Assembly: GCF_004348995.1 (NCBI RefSeq)
Contig: NZ_SMKQ01000003.1
Coordinates: 1 to 64,000, forward strand
Reading direction: 5' to 3'
Source of the DNA: Nonomuraea terrae
Lineage (GTDB): Bacteria > Actinomycetota > Actinomycetes > Streptosporangiales > Streptosporangiaceae
DNA: 64,000 bases
The notes beneath the pieces were generated by a model. That model did not search any database, had not been told where the DNA came from, and worked only from the letters and a program-made list of their open reading frames with translations. Below, piece by piece: positions 6,977 through 14,768 of the stretch. Position 1 is the stretch's first letter, and each line of letters opens with the position of its first letter. Both the position numbers and the translations under genes were made by a program.

Positions 6977-7423
6977 ATGACCATCCTCGTCGCCTACGAC
7001 GGCTCGGCAGACTCGCGGGCCGCCATCGAGTTCGCGGCACAACACCTCGCGGCCGAGCCCGCGGTCGTCATCACGGTGTGGGAGCCGCTGCTCGTGCAAC
7101 TCAAGAAGTATCCGCTGGCGGCCGGCTCGATCGACCCCGCCACCGAGGACGAGGCGCACGCCGAGGCCGAGCGGCACGCCAAGGAGGGGGCCGACCTGGC
7201 GCTCGCCTCGGGGCTCAGGGACGTCACCTATCGTGCGGTGGCCGACAACGAGTCGATCTGGAAGACGATCGTGGACGTGGCCGACGAGATCGACGCCTCG
7301 GTGATCGTGACCGGTTCGCGCGGCCTGGCCGGCGTCAGGTCGGTGCTGCTGGGCAGTGTCTCCAACCACGTGCTGCACCACGCGCACCGGCCGATGCTCA
7401 TCGTGCCGCCGGCGAAGGCGTGA
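6977..7423 (+). CDS. Universal stress protein (UspA family)
   Basis: A single 148-residue Usp domain. It starts [20 protein letters not shown], the first strand and helix of the fold, and ends with [20 protein letters not shown], the G-x2-G-x9-G-S/N nucleotide-binding signature of ATP-binding Usp proteins. These small cytoplasmic proteins bind ATP and are induced by growth arrest or hypoxia in actinobacteria. GAAAGGGAAAG precedes the ATG. The last 26 bases overlap the 3' end of the convergent soxR gene. Confidence 0.92.
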
Positions 7424-7901
7424 CGCGGCAGTCCTGAGGCGGGCACAGCCGGGTGTCGATGCGCCGCGCACCCGGCCCCTCCTCGCCCAGCCGGTCGTGC
7501 GGGTTGGCGACCGGGCACAGGTCGAGCGACAGGCAGCCGCAGCCGATGCAGTCGGTGAGGTCGTCGCGCAGCCGCTGGAGCTGCTCGATGCGGTCGTCGA
7601 GCTCGCCACGCCAGGCCGCCGACAGCCGGGCCCAGTCGGCGCGGGTGGGGGTGCGCCCGTCGGGCAGCTCGGCCAGGGCGTCCTTGATGACCTTCAGCGG
7701 GATGCCGATGCGCTGGGCGAGCCTGATGAAGGCGACCCTGCGCAGGCTGTCACGGCTGTAGCGGCGCTGGTTGCCGGCCGTGCGCCGGCTGCTGATCAGA
7801 CCCTTGGACTCGTAGAAGTGCAGGGCGGAGACGGCCACGCCGCTGCGTTCGGCGAGCTGGCCGACCGTGAGTTCCTTGGTGTTCCACGCGACCTTCGACA
7901 T
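7398..7901 (-). CDS. soxR: Redox-sensitive transcriptional activator SoxR
   Basis: A MerR-family activator of 167 aa. The N-terminal winged helix reads [20 protein letters not shown], a dimer coiled coil follows, and the [2Fe-2S] cluster motif C-x2-C-x-C-x5-C is complete (C118, C121, C123, C129). SoxR is switched on by oxidation of this cluster; in actinobacteria it usually answers redox-active compounds and controls oxidoreductases or exporters rather than soxS. Only 9 bp separate it from the lrp-like gene upstream on the same strand, so they may be cotranscribed. The C-terminal tail after the cluster is longer than in E. coli SoxR, as usual in actinobacteria. Confidence 0.94.
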
Positions 7902-8342: not shown

Positions 8343-8398
8343 AACCGAATGATATCTGGCAGTTTTACCAAGACACCGAACAGCGTATGGTTTGCCGT

Positions 8399-9304
8399 AT
8401 GGAAACGATCGCCACCGAGTTCGAGGTGCTGGACGAGCGGTTCGCCGGAGTCGGCGGAGACGACCGGATGGAGGTGCTGCACAGAGGCGCCCGCTGGGCG
8501 GAGGGGCCGGTCTACTTCCCCGCCGGCCGGTTCCTGGTCTGGAGCGACATCCCCAGCGACCGGCTGCTGCGCTGGGACGAGATGACCGGTGCGGTGGGCC
8601 CGTTCCGCAGCCCGGCCGGTTACACCAACGGCAACACGCTCGACCGCGAGGGCCGCCTCGTCTCCTGCGAGCACGGTGGCCGCCGCGTCACCCGCACCGA
8701 GCACGACGGCTCGATCACCGTGATCGCCGACCGCTGGCAGGGCAGGCGGTTCAACAGCCCCAACGACGTGGTGGTCCGCTCCGACGGCTCGATCTGGTTC
8801 ACCGACCCGCCGTACGGCATCCTCAGCGACTACGAGGGGCACGCCGCCGACCAGGAGATCGACGGCTGCCACGTCTACCGGGCCGACCCGGTGACGGGCG
8901 AGGTGCGCATGGTGGCCGGCGACTTCGACCGGCCCAACGGCCTGGCCTTCTCGCTGGACGAGCGGCGCCTCTACATCGCCGACACCCCCGGCAAGCATGT
9001 GCGGGTGTTCGACGTGGCCGACGACGGCACCCTGTCGGGAGGCAAGGTCTTCGCCGAGGCCGAGGACGGCTTCGACGGCCTGCGCCTCGACAACACCGGC
9101 CGCGTCTGGGCCTCGGCCGGCAAATCCGTGCTCTGCTTCGACCCCGACGGCACCGTGATCGGCCGGCTCCGGTTCCCGGAGCCCACGTCCAACCTGGTTT
9201 TCGGCGGCCTCAAGCGCAACCGGATGTTCATCACGGCGTGCACCTCGCTCTACTCCCTGATGACCAACGTCACCGGCGCCCGCCCGATCTGGGCACGTCG
9301 CTGA
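8399..9304 (+). CDS. SMP-30/gluconolactonase/LRE family hydrolase
   Basis: A six-bladed beta-propeller lactonase, 301 aa from the ATG at 8399; an in-frame ATG at 8387 would add four residues. Family landmarks are RWAEGPVYFPAGRFLVWSD, RFNSPNDVVVRSDGSIWFTD and DRPNGLAFSLDERRLYIAD, which supply the glutamate, asparagine and aspartate that hold the catalytic divalent metal. Such enzymes hydrolyse sugar lactones; the true substrate cannot be read from sequence. The divergent Lrp gene is the likely regulator. Confidence 0.92.
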   Translation: METIATEFEVLDERFAGVGGDDRMEVLHRGARWAEGPVYFPAGRFLVWSDIPSDRLLRWDEMTGAVGPFRSPAGYTNGNTLDREGRLVSCEHGGRRVTRTEHDGSITVIADRWQGRRFNSPNDVVVRSDGSIWFTDPPYGILSDYEGHAADQEIDGCHVYRADPVTGEVRMVAGDFDRPNGLAFSLDERRLYIADTPGKHVRVFDVADDGTLSGGKVFAEAEDGFDGLRLDNTGRVWASAGKSVLCFDPDGTVIGRLRFPEPTSNLVFGGLKRNRMFITACTSLYSLMTNVTGARPIWARR

Positions 9305-9498: not shown

Positions 9499-12400
9499 TT
9501 GTCCGCGCCGTATGCAGACTTCATACCGCTACTCGTGCTGGCCGTCGTCGCGGCGGCCTTCCTCGCTCGCCGGTCCCGCAACCGGTCCTGGCCTCTCAAG
9601 GTGCTGCTGGTCACCGGTGCGGCGCTGTGGATGGCCCTGGCCGGAGGGTCGATGTGGCTGATGAGCCACGCGATCGCCGAGAGGCTGCCCAGCGCTCAGG
9701 TACCCACACGACACCCCTGCGCCGGGCAGGAGCCCAGGAGATTCGACGTCTCCCTGATCAACGTGCCGCTGTTCGTCAACCGCTTCGGTGACGTGGTGCC
9801 CGAAGGACGCATGTACGTCCTCGACAAGAACATCGCGGAGGTGCGCGCCACCTATGCGCAGGCCGCCGACCCGCGACAGGGATCGCTGAACGACCTGATC
9901 GAGCCGCTCACCCTGCGCGCCAACCAGGGCGACTGCATCAAGGTGCGCTTCACCAACCGGCTCAACGAACCGGCGCCGCCACTGAACAGGGAGATCCGCG
10001 ACAACGCGATCTTCACGCTGCCGGGTGAGATCCTGCGGCCCCCCGGTACGGTGACCCGCAGACCGCGGGAGTTCGCGCCCGCCCTGAGCGTTCCGGAGAT
10101 CGACTTCGACCCCGCGAAGGCCCCGAACGCCTCCATGCACTTCGACGGCCTCGACTACGACGTCAAGCGCTCGGACGGCACCGTGGTGGGCAACAACCCG
10201 GACTCCACCGCCCGGCCCGGCGAGACCATCACCTACAGTCTGCACGCCAACACGCAGGGGCAGTTCCAGTTCAAGGACGGGGCGGACTTCACCTCCCAGC
10301 AGACCCGGCCGATCGACCGCAACGGCGACGTGCGCTTCATCGGCTCGCACGCGTTCGGCGCGTTCGGCGCGTTCGTCATCGAGGAGCCCGGGGCAAGATG
10401 GGTGGACTCCCACACCGGCGAGCCGCTGGAGTCCGGGACGCGGGCCGTCATCAAGCGGCCGAACGGCGTGGACTTCCGTGAGCACGTGCTGTTCATGCAC
10501 GACGAGGTGGAGGCAGAGCCGGGCATCCTCACCCGGCTCTGCCGCGCCAACGACGATGTGGCACCGTCCAGCTCGGAGTGTGTGCGACCCACGAGAGCGC
10601 AGCTCAGGCTGCTGACCAGAGGAACGCTGCCCGGTCTCGGCGGCGGCGACGCCGACGCCCTGGTGCAGGGCGAGATCCCGACCAAGCTCGAGTGGTTCGC
10701 CTTCAACTACCGCTCCGAGCCCGCGCACAACCGCGAGGAGGTGGGCTGCCCGGCAGCCAGGCGCGCCGCTCAGGGGTTCGACGCTGAGCGCTGCATCGGT
10801 GAGGAGACGTCACTTTCCTCGTGGGCGTACGGCGACCCGGGAGGCGGCGACCTGGTGTTCGAGAACTACCGGGCCGAGCCGACCCAGATCCGGCTGCTGC
10901 ATCCCGGCGAGTTCGAGACCCACACCTTCCACTGGCACGTCAACCGCTGGCTGTTCGACCCGGAGGACGAGGGCGGTATCGACGAGATCAGCCGGCCCGA
11001 CCACCTCACGAGGAGGACCAACATCCTCGACGTGCAGGCGGTCTCCCCGGGAAGCCACTACGGCCTGGTGGCCCAGGGTGGCGCGGGGGCGGAGCGTGAG
11101 GGCAAGCCGGCGACCTTCGGCGACGTCATCTTCCACTGCCACCTCTATCCGCACTTCTTCGACGGCATGTGGGGTCTCAACCGCACGCTGGACAAGCTGT
11201 CGGACGGAACACGGAAGAACCCTGACGGCACACCCGTGCCGCCACTGTTCCCGCTGCCGGACTTCGACTACCAGCTCGATGTCCCCGGGGTTCAGCCACC
11301 TCCGGCGCCCACGCCGGAAACCCCGGGCTTCCCGAACTTCGTCCCGGGGGTGTTCGGCTTCAAGGCGCCGAAGCCGCCGCTCGGGGTCGCCGATCGGTCG
11401 CCGGGCGGAGTCTTCCCGCCGACCCCTCTGGAGAGGGCGGCGGCCGACCCAGGCGGGCAGCTGCCGGGGGCCTTCTTCCAGGATCCGTGTCCCCCGGGAC
11501 GTCCCGTCAAGACGTTCAAGGTCGCGGTCATCCAGATCGAGCAGCAGTACAACCCGGAGTTGGAATGGACCAACCCGCAGGCACGTGTCTATGTGCTGCA
11601 GTCCGACAAACAGGCGGTGCTGAACGGCAAGAAACCGGAGCCCTTCGCGCCCATCCTCAACGTCGGCGACTGCGTGGTCTACAAGATGACCAACGAGTTG
11701 CCGCGAAGATTCGGCGGTACGGTCTTCGACCGCCTGCAGATCACCAATGAAGTCAGCATTCATCAGCACATGGTGCATTTCGACGTGCTGTCGTCCGACG
11801 GAGCCGCCAACGGCTGGAACTACGACGAGGGCGCCGACACAGGTCAGACGATCATCTACCGCAATTACGTGCACGAGAACGTGAAGACGAACTCGTTCCA
11901 CGACCACTTCTTCCCGAACATCCATCAGAAGAACGGGCTTTTCGGCGGCGCGACCATCCACCCGGCCGGGTGCGTGCCCGCACTGCCGCACTCCAGAACG
12001 AGGCCGGCCATCGGCACCGTCTTCGACGTGCACTGCGAGCCGACGGTCGACGTCAACAACCGGCCCACGGACGGCGTCGACTACCGCAACTTCTCCCTCT
12101 TCATCGAGGACCACGTGCCGTTGTTCCAGCCGAACGACCCGAGGACGCGTGACGACGACAGGTTCGAGACCCCGTTCGGGGTGCCGATCTTCCCGGCCAA
12201 GTTCCCGTCGAGCGTCGATGACCAGGGCGGCATGGGGGTCAACTACCGGTTGGAGCCGTTCGAGGCCCGCAGGGACAGGGATCCGGCGACCTTGTTCGAC
12301 TCGGCGGTCCACGGGGAGCCGTTCACCCCGCTGTTGAAGGCGTTCCAGGGCGATCCGGTGAAGTTCCGGCTCTTCCAGCTCTCGCAAGAGGAGTCGCACG

Positions 12401-14163
12401 GATTCAACCTCGACCAGTTTCGGTGGAGGTTCGAGCCTGAGGATCCCGCGTCGAACGTCGTCGGAGCACAGCACATCGGCATGCTCGAATACTTCGACGT
12501 GGTTCCCCCAGCGGACGAACCACCGCCGCCGACACGGGACATGCGGGTGCTCGACTACCAGTACAACTACGCCGGCGCGGATGACTGGTTCCTCGGGGAC
12601 TGGGGACTGTTCCGCATCTTCTCCTGCTCCAATCCGAGCTCCGGGAGGGCGCCGATCCGCGAGCTGCCGGACTTCCCGCGGGACACCTGCACGGGTGAGG
12701 ACGGCGAGCGCGACGACCGGCTGACCGAGTTGGTGTCGGCTCGGCACCAAGCCCGGCCGACACATTGCCGGACCGGCCAGAACCGGACCTTCGACATCAT
12801 CGCCATGAACAAGGACATCACCTACAACAAGTCCGGCGATCATGACCCGAACGGCCTGATGTACGCGCTGGCGTCCGACGAGCAGGCGCTGCGTGACGGC
12901 ACGAAGCAACCCGAGCCACTGGTGATCAGAGCGAACGCGGGCGACTGCGTGACGGTCAACTTCACCAACAAACTCGATCCGCGGAAGATGAAACCGCACT
13001 GCCACGAGGCGCTGGAACCGGGGCAGCTCGGCTTCAAGGAGAACGAGGTGCGCTTCCCGCAGTGCCTCCAGCGACCGCCCCAGGACGAGGAGAACGTGCC
13101 CGGCTTCAAGCCCTTCCCGGTGAGCGCCAAGGCGTCGATCAGCCCGCAACTCGTCCAGGCGCTGCCACCCAAGGCGGTGGCACCCGGGCGCAGCATCCGG
13201 TACCACTGGACGCTGCCCAGGGACACGATCGGGATGGCGCTGCTGCGGGATCACGCCGACGTACAGAACCATCTGCACCACGGCCTGTACGGGGCGCTGA
13301 TCATCGAGGAGCCCGGCTCCGCGTATCTGGACCCGAAGACCGGCCGGCCGCTGAGCAGCGGCACCAGCGCGGTGGTCACCCACCCGGCGAAGCCGGACTT
13401 CCGGGAGAACATCGTCCTGATGAACAGCGACCTGGCGCTGTTCCGCAAGGACACGAACAACAACCCGATGGACGACAAGCCGGTGCCGGACAACTTCGAC
13501 CTGGTGCTCGAGCCGAGCCGGGAGGCCGACGACCCGGAGGACCAGGGGGAGTTCTCCATCAACTACACGAACGAACCCTGGTCCCACCGGTTCGCCGTGG
13601 ACCAGAACATCACCAACATCTTCAGCTCCATCGTGCACGGTGACCCGGCCACGCCGGTGTTCCAGGCGTACGCCGGCGACAGGACGGTCTTCCGGGTCGG
13701 ACAGGCCGTGGGCGACCCGCGCTCCACGAGCTTCGCCCTGCACGCGCACACCTGGCGCCGGTCGCCCGCCGACCCGCAGTCCCAGATCGCGGCCACCCAG
13801 GGGCAGTTCAACCCGGGCAGTGTCTACAACATCGTTCCGGGAGTGGTCTACGACATCGTCGCCGACCCGGCGAGCACCGGCGGGGCCGGCGGGTACCGCC
13901 ACGTGCCGGGCGACTATCTCTACCGCTCCAGCACGCTGCCCCGTCACCTCAACGGTGGACAGTGGGGGCTGTTCCGGGTGCACGCCACGCTCCGGCCTGA
14001 CCTGATCCCGCTGCCCGACCGCCGGACGCGGGAAGGAGACCGGGAGCGGGTCGAGCAGCGGCCGCCGTACGAGCGGGACGATGGCCATGAGCCCACCGAG
14101 TCGGAGCTGCCGTACGCGTGGTTCGGCGCGGCGGGGCAGAGTAACGGGCGGCGGTCGCGATGA
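9499..14163 (+). CDS. Giant six-cupredoxin multicopper oxidase, membrane anchored
   Basis: A 1554-residue protein with two N-terminal hydrophobic segments (about 8-21 and 35-55), then three tandem pairs of cupredoxin-like domains. All four multicopper oxidase motifs occur, but in the order H475-x2-H478-x-H480, H546-C547-H548-x3-H552-x4-M557, H755-x-H757, H801-x-H803. This gives type 1 ligands and eight trinuclear-cluster histidines at the join of pairs 1 and 2. The equivalent sites are degenerate elsewhere: HFD at 214-216, YNYAGADDW in pair 2, YRSSTLPRH in pair 3. Pair 3 keeps H1252, H1258 and H1415-x-H1417. Ceruloplasmin and MnxG are the closest plans. Substrate is unknown; metal oxidation is possible. 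TTG start after AGGAGG (9489-9494). It overlaps the next gene by ATGA. Confidence 0.85.
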   Translation: MSAPYADFIPLLVLAVVAAAFLARRSRNRSWPLKVLLVTGAALWMALAGGSMWLMSHAIAERLPSAQVPTRHPCAGQEPRRFDVSLINVPLFVNRFGDVVPEGRMYVLDKNIAEVRATYAQAADPRQGSLNDLIEPLTLRANQGDCIKVRFTNRLNEPAPPLNREIRDNAIFTLPGEILRPPGTVTRRPREFAPALSVPEIDFDPAKAPNASMHFDGLDYDVKRSDGTVVGNNPDSTARPGETITYSLHANTQGQFQFKDGADFTSQQTRPIDRNGDVRFIGSHAFGAFGAFVIEEPGARWVDSHTGEPLESGTRAVIKRPNGVDFREHVLFMHDEVEAEPGILTRLCRANDDVAPSSSECVRPTRAQLRLLTRGTLPGLGGGDADALVQGEIPTKLEWFAFNYRSEPAHNREEVGCPAARRAAQGFDAERCIGEETSLSSWAYGDPGGGDLVFENYRAEPTQIRLLHPGEFETHTFHWHVNRWLFDPEDEGGIDEISRPDHLTRRTNILDVQAVSPGSHYGLVAQGGAGAEREGKPATFGDVIFHCHLYPHFFDGMWGLNRTLDKLSDGTRKNPDGTPVPPLFPLPDFDYQLDVPGVQPPPAPTPETPGFPNFVPGVFGFKAPKPPLGVADRSPGGVFPPTPLERAAADPGGQLPGAFFQDPCPPGRPVKTFKVAVIQIEQQYNPELEWTNPQARVYVLQSDKQAVLNGKKPEPFAPILNVGDCVVYKMTNELPRRFGGTVFDRLQITNEVSIHQHMVHFDVLSSDGAANGWNYDEGADTGQTIIYRNYVHENVKTNSFHDHFFPNIHQKNGLFGGATIHPAGCVPALPHSRTRPAIGTVFDVHCEPTVDVNNRPTDGVDYRNFSLFIEDHVPLFQPNDPRTRDDDRFETPFGVPIFPAKFPSSVDDQGGMGVNYRLEPFEARRDRDPATLFDSAVHGEPFTPLLKAFQGDPVKFRLFQLSQEESHGFNLDQFRWRFEPEDPASNVVGAQHIGMLEYFDVVPPADEPPPPTRDMRVLDYQYNYAGADDWFLGDWGLFRIFSCSNPSSGRAPIRELPDFPRDTCTGEDGERDDRLTELVSARHQARPTHCRTGQNRTFDIIAMNKDITYNKSGDHDPNGLMYALASDEQALRDGTKQPEPLVIRANAGDCVTVNFTNKLDPRKMKPHCHEALEPGQLGFKENEVRFPQCLQRPPQDEENVPGFKPFPVSAKASISPQLVQALPPKAVAPGRSIRYHWTLPRDTIGMALLRDHADVQNHLHHGLYGALIIEEPGSAYLDPKTGRPLSSGTSAVVTHPAKPDFRENIVLMNSDLALFRKDTNNNPMDDKPVPDNFDLVLEPSREADDPEDQGEFSINYTNEPWSHRFAVDQNITNIFSSIVHGDPATPVFQAYAGDRTVFRVGQAVGDPRSTSFALHAHTWRRSPADPQSQIAATQGQFNPGSVYNIVPGVVYDIVADPASTGGAGGYRHVPGDYLYRSSTLPRHLNGGQWGLFRVHATLRPDLIPLPDRRTREGDRERVEQRPPYERDDGHEPTESELPYAWFGAAGQSNGRRSR

Positions 14164-14768
14164 GGCTGATGAGCAAGCTCAGGCCAGAGCACGACCGGCA
14201 GCCCGGTGCGCCGGCGCCGGCCCGCCGACCGGCCCCGGCCGGACGACGCCGGCCGCGCGCATCCGCGGGGCTGACGCCGTTCCGCCACGGCCTGCTGCTC
14301 GGCGGCTGCGTCGGGATGACGTTCGCCCTGGCCATCGGGGTGGTCGGCTTCCTCGTCACCCGGCCGACGGCGCCGGTCGCCGGCCCGGCGGCCGGTGCGC
14401 AGCCGGCGGCTCTGGGAGCGGCCGCGGCCCGGTCGGCGGCGGCGATCGATGTGACCGCCACCCACCTCGGTGACCTCCAGGTACGGATCGAGGCCCAGGT
14501 GAGTGCGCCGCGCACCTACGACCCGATCACCAGGGCGCAGGTCGTCGCCTGGACGGACATGGTCGCCATGCCGATGGCCCACCGGGAGGGGCCCATCGTC
14601 ATGACCGAGGTGCCCGGGCGACCCGGCACCTACCAGGCGCTCACGAAGGTGGCGATGGTCGGGGAGTACAACATCACCGTCGAGACGCGCCAGCCGATGG
14701 CGTCCAAGGCCGACAGGCGGCTGGAAGTGCAGGAGGTGAGTAAGGGGGCTGAGGCCCGCACGCGCTGA
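14160..14768 (+). CDS. Membrane-anchored YtkA/FixH-like domain protein
   Basis: It starts inside the oxidase stop codon (ATGA), so the two are coupled. The 202-residue product has a basic proline-rich cytoplasmic start, one membrane helix (about 43-68), then a beta-rich external domain. The stretch MVAMPMAHREGPIVMTEVPG followed by GTYQALTKVAMVGEYNITVE resembles YtkA/FixH-like immunoglobulin-fold domains, where the MPMxH region is a possible copper ligand. Such domains occur in copper handling and oxidase assembly, so metal delivery to the oxidase or a structural partnership is a reasonable inference. The family call rests on motif pattern only. Confidence 0.65.
   Translation: MRLMSKLRPEHDRQPGAPAPARRPAPAGRRRPRASAGLTPFRHGLLLGGCVGMTFALAIGVVGFLVTRPTAPVAGPAAGAQPAALGAAAARSAAAIDVTATHLGDLQVRIEAQVSAPRTYDPITRAQVVAWTDMVAMPMAHREGPIVMTEVPGRPGTYQALTKVAMVGEYNITVETRQPMASKADRRLEVQEVSKGAEARTR

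Follow-up and report, generated by a model that had tools for sequence, protein, structure and literature searches.

In this work we describe a gene for a six-cupredoxin multicopper oxidase of the soil actinobacterium Nonomuraea terrae, located at positions 9499-14163 (plus strand) of the first 64,000 nucleotides of contig NZ_SMKQ01000003.1, the whole of which is referred to here as the window. Judged from its sequence, the encoded protein is very probably an actinomycete member of the MnxG family that shares the MnxG copper plan. MnxG is the known bacterial enzyme that converts dissolved manganese to manganese oxide. The architecture is already known, and the oxidase would represent a new member of this family, encoded beside a small YtkA-like membrane protein that may be its partner.

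Assignment to the MnxG family is founded on homology that extends over the full length of a solved relative. A phmmer search of all PDB sequences matched one protein, MnxG (9bxa_A; 653.8 bits, E 5e-195), in three stretches spanning MnxG residues 3-1213, while residues 335-1510 of the oxidase alone matched 9bxa at 2.1e-188. Identity to MnxG is about 35%, 9bxa carries the same four copper motifs in the same order, and parts of the window oxidase also match non-equivalent repeats of the solved protein. The NCBIfam MnxG model of the Pseudomonas type, NF041487, was matched at 1.2e-67 in six stretches, and Cu-oxidase_3 was the sole Pfam family seen (best at residues 748-822). The original prediction, made from the DNA alone, had named ceruloplasmin as the nearest known plan; this did not hold, as ceruloplasmin did not attain even E 10 in the PDB-wide search and a trinuclear site of its type, formed by domains 1 and 6, is not present in the oxidase, in which domain 1 carries HFD and domain 6 carries RSS in place of HCH.

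The copper motifs were measured at residues 475-480 (HTFHWH), 546-557 (HCHLYPHFFDGM), 755-757 (HQH) and 801-803 (HDH), in agreement with the positions given in the original prediction. Following the general ligand pattern of multicopper oxidases, H475, C547, H552 and M557 are predicted to bind the type 1 copper, and H478, H480, H546, H548, H755, H757, H801 and H803 are predicted to form the trinuclear site, with the domain 2 ligands again taken from that pattern. To examine conservation we used a motif alignment of 27 sequences, comprising 19 close actinomycete orthologues (including the window oxidase), Priestia MnxG and seven others, namely four actinobacterial proteins of about 2000 amino acids, one haloarchaeal protein and two more distant actinobacterial ones. 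The four motifs are retained in 25 of the 26 aligned homologues, down to about 30% identity, indicating that they are no chance occurrence; the ligands are conserved in 18 close and seven distant homologues, Priestia megaterium MnxG among them, and all four type 1 ligands and eight trinuclear histidines are invariant within the close family. Throughout the alignment the type 1 site is confined to domain 2 and the trinuclear ligands are shared out over domains 2 and 3. The exception to motif retention is a homologue on a Pseudonocardia plasmid (L057, 5004-8774), in which the HCH motif and one histidine of HDH are gone; this six-domain protein is probably inactive or altered.

Two further observations concern the type 1 site. 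A separate group of actinobacterial homologues (L059, L060, L062 and L063, roughly 1900-2100 amino acids) has the axial Met replaced by Phe (HCHLYPHFAEGFW), which should result in a higher copper potential. In addition, residue 340 of 9bxa_A is Ala (HCHLYPAF), at the type 1 position occupied by His in both Priestia MnxG and the window protein (H552, window 11152-11154), and the solved chain is probably an engineered variant. The PHCHE stretch of domain 5 was rejected as a copper motif: it sits within an insert absent from the MnxG of Priestia, and of the 19 close orthologues 11 do not have its second His.

Comparison of family sub-alignments by hhalign confirmed, at the level of sequence, that the six cupredoxin domains form three pairs in tandem. 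Pairs defined as residues 66-655, 656-1080 and 1084-1510 matched one another strongly (pair 1/pair 2, 8e-64; pair 1/pair 3, 4e-73; pair 2/pair 3, 3e-76). Among single domains, odd matched only odd (D1/D3, 1e-45; D1/D5, 6e-58; D3/D5, 2e-48) and even only even (D2/D4, 3e-26; D2/D6, 2e-27; D4/D6, 3e-36), with the odd-versus-even comparisons, which returned no match, serving as an internal control. Outside domains 2 and 3 the copper sites are degenerate, with HFD at 214-216 in domain 1, SHGF near 966 and YNY at 1022-1024 in domain 4, and LHAH near 1414-1417 and RSS at 1476-1478 in domain 6; the replacement of ligand motifs by HFD, YNY and RSS had been anticipated. Together, the internal repeats, ligand conservation and MnxG homology support the earlier proposal of three fused two-domain units in which only the interface of pairs 1 and 2, between domains 2 and 3, keeps a complete trinuclear site.

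The order of the motifs follows from which interface is retained. Two-domain oxidases have their trinuclear site where the second domain of a pair meets the first domain of the following pair, and the fusion of three pairs consequently offers three possible sites, 2/3, 4/5 and 6/1. Ceruloplasmin retains the 6/1 site, with HxH motifs in its first domain and HCH in its last. MnxG retains the 2/3 site, so that HCH precedes HxH and no circular permutation is required. Consistent with this, Vasin et al. (2013; PMC3600357) placed the trinuclear site at 2/3 in all bacterial six-domain multicopper oxidases analysed there, with the type 1 copper in domain 2 only.

Comparison with characterized systems places the window oxidase closest to Bacillus MnxG (9bxa; Priestia plasmid copy UYT88821.1), with which it shares full-length homology, three cupredoxin pairs, motif order and a predicted copper plan of one type 1 site (domain 2) and one trinuclear site (domains 2 and 3). 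It differs in length (1554 versus about 1220 amino acids), in having a predicted N-terminal membrane anchor and extra loops, and in its YtkA-like partner downstream, whereas Bacillus MnxG has MnxE and MnxF upstream. MnxG of Pseudomonas putida GB-1 is represented by NF041487, a profile of 1894 positions, and its operon includes an SCO-family protein and other genes, a lactonase-family gene among them (PMC8218464). Ceruloplasmin and hephaestin likewise comprise six cupredoxin domains as three pairs, although ceruloplasmin, unlike the window oxidase, uses the domain 1/domain 6 interface; neither of the two gave a sequence match in the PDB search. Chlamydomonas Fox1, a eukaryotic ferroxidase, is similar by published description in its trinuclear site between domains 2 and 3 but retains type 1 sites in additional domains (PMC3600357). 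Two-domain laccase trimers share the pair as repeat unit and a trinuclear site between pairs; they are built from three separate chains with three active sites, whereas the window oxidase is one chain with one site.

Directly downstream of the oxidase lies a gene for a protein with one membrane helix (about residues 43-69) and a YtkA-like domain. Five residues of its DMxxMPxxH motif (133-141), D133, M134, M137, P138 and H141, are invariant among homologues, as is H102. The YtkA-like Pfam family was matched in 14 of 15 partner homologues, with the window copy just under Pfam's own cut-off, and the partner profile has a weak match (E 2e-4) in 9ll2, a 'copper resistance protein' of known structure. 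This gene directly follows every actinomycete oxidase orthologue whose 3' flank was readable, which includes loci from Nonomuraea, Herbidospora, Sphaerisporangium, Micromonospora, Actinoplanes, Saccharothrix and an uncultured member of the Streptosporangiales; three loci whose contigs were cut or gave no reading (L041, L043 and L002) stand outside this count. Among 99 related genomes, a full oxidase occurs in eight, all eight with the partner adjoining it, and the partner was not found in the other 91, bar one 20.9-bit match taken as spurious; G455, a genome with only a distant oxidase homologue, lacked it. Bacillus MnxG needs MnxE and MnxF for activity (PMC5622069), and in Priestia two small genes occupy their place just upstream of mnxG. 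The second of these, at the MnxF position, had no match in the genome of the window, in a search run without a positive control, and none in plasmids outside Priestia. It is conceivable, though we would put it somewhat short of an even chance, that the partner takes the place of MnxE/MnxF and either loads the oxidase with copper or holds copper for it. With the same reservation we propose that actinomycete MnxG-type oxidases may form two-protein membrane systems in which the YtkA-like Met/His protein is a required copper-loading or structural partner.

Taken together with general multicopper oxidase chemistry, whereby electrons taken up by the type 1 copper are relayed to the trinuclear centre and O2 is converted to water, these features suggest the following mechanism. 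The three tandem pairs would close into a ceruloplasmin-like ring in which domain 2 bears the single type 1 copper and domains 2 and 3 together contribute the eight histidines of the one trinuclear centre, the two other inter-pair sites being dead and structural. A reduced metal, most likely Mn(II), would donate electrons singly to the type 1 copper, from which they may travel over a Cys-His bridge to the trinuclear centre for reduction of O2, while the downstream membrane protein would most likely supply or retain the copper.

The substrate is the least certain part of this explanation: Mn(II) appears the likeliest, with odds that we regard as about even. Several observations weigh against the explanation as a whole. 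The oxidase scores 228 bits with NF041487, far from its equivalog cut-off of 3100 bits; no MnxE/MnxF-like genes lie beside it; and AlphaFold models of residues 66-1085 and 335-1510 reached a pLDDT (predicted local distance difference test) of only 39.1 and 37.2. The low values are probably due to an alignment of 14 close sequences, and the copper geometry consequently rests on homology to the solved relative. In the literature searched, we found no report of Mn oxidation by Nonomuraea and no biochemical data on this oxidase clade. An enzyme with the same copper plan may instead act on another substrate, through protective oxidation of Cu(I) or Fe(II) or laccase-like activity on soil phenolics, a reading to which we attach a sizeable but less than even probability. 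The Met/His motif of the YtkA-like partner and its weak 9ll2 match suit copper handling, and the modest identity to MnxG and the neighbourhood without MnxE/MnxF point the same way; however, such a partner would also be of use to a Mn oxidase, which needs copper, and the studied relatives recovered here, MnxG of Bacillus (PMC5622069) and of Pseudomonas (PMC8218464), are Mn(II) oxidases by experiment.

Two other explanations concern the copper plan itself. The original prediction regarded the motif order as the reverse of that in laccases, and a permuted laccase plan that is new and has no relation to the six-domain oxidases already known, ceruloplasmin being its nearest model, would accommodate this order as well as the three cupredoxin pairs. 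The order does differ from that of three-domain laccases, but it is universal across the 27-sequence alignment except in the Pseudonocardia plasmid homologue, the homology to MnxG is full-length, and relatives with the same order, an outcome that the original prediction had itself named as refuting it, were described in 2013 (PMC3600357), which removes the claim to novelty and renders such a plan extremely improbable. Nearly as improbable is an inactive, structural six-domain protein like coagulation factor V: degeneration of two of the three inter-pair sites, and the loss of HCH in that distant homologue, would fit such a role, yet the complete set of type 1 and trinuclear ligands is present and does not vary in the close family. 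A catalytic oxidase with the MnxG copper plan is the preferred reading, and its features are collected in Table 1.

Table 1. Positions in the window of the oxidase, its domains and motifs, and the downstream gene (residue numbers in brackets).
Feature	Position	Strand	Remarks
Putative MnxG-family six-cupredoxin multicopper oxidase	9499..14163	+	1554 amino acids; TTG start
Predicted N-terminal membrane anchor	9499..9666	+	From hydropathy and sequence; topology inferred
Domain 1 (odd type)	9694..10533	+	HFD (214-216) instead of His-x-His; boundaries approximate
Domain 2 (even type)	10534..11463	+	Predicted type 1 copper site and half of trinuclear site
HxxHxH (475-480) and HCHx3Hx4M (546-557)	10921..11169	+	Inside domain 2
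Domain 3 (odd type)	11464..12093	+	Predicted second half of trinuclear site
HQH (755-757) and HDH (801-803)	11761..11907	+	Four predicted trinuclear ligands
Domain 4 (even type)	12094..12738	+	YNY instead of HCH; no type 1 site
Domain 5 (odd type)	12748..13503	+	Degenerate ligands; PHCHE (1166-1170) within insert
Domain 6 (even type)	13504..14028	+	LHAH remnant retained; RSS instead of HCH
YtkA-like partner gene	14160..14768	+	202 amino acids; overlaps oxidase stop codon (ATGA)

The oxidase is encoded by a single open frame, with a GGAGG-type ribosome-binding site 5 bases ahead of the start codon, and is single-copy in the 9.69-Mb genome. At its N-terminus, hydrophobic residues 1-26 are followed by a loop rich in Arg and then by a second segment of weaker hydrophobicity (about 35-55), from which the protein is predicted to be anchored in the membrane and to face outwards. 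Flanking genes other than the partner are conserved within Nonomuraea only. An upstream SMP-30/gluconolactonase gene (8387-9304) was considered as a member of the system given the lactonase-family gene of P. putida (PMC8218464), and was not counted because it was found in the locus of the closest relative only. A gene for a SoxR-type redox sensor (7398-7901, minus strand; NCBIfam TIGR01950, 233 bits), slightly upstream of the oxidase, was similarly found in that locus only.

The closest named relatives of the source genome are Nonomuraea species, and the N. aridisoli oxidase is 95% identical to that of the window. Across the phylum, 11 of 396 sampled genomes held a match to the oxidase, and within the genus 8 of 55 did (its own included), indicating a patchy distribution; viral contigs gave no match. 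In the phylogenetic tree, the window oxidase and those of N. aridisoli and N. jiangxiensis fall together within an actinomycete clade of good support, the deep branches being uncertain. Four oxidases of the same genus (L049, L050, L051 and L052), about 60% identical to it, branch separately and thus form a second lineage within the genus, which suggests transfer, or an old duplication with loss.

While the order of copper motifs is in itself nothing new, experiments have linked bacterial Mn(II) oxidation to a few MnxG-like enzymes, and a clade whose partner is different and tightly linked would offer a second system in which to learn what MnxG-type copper loading and mineral formation need.
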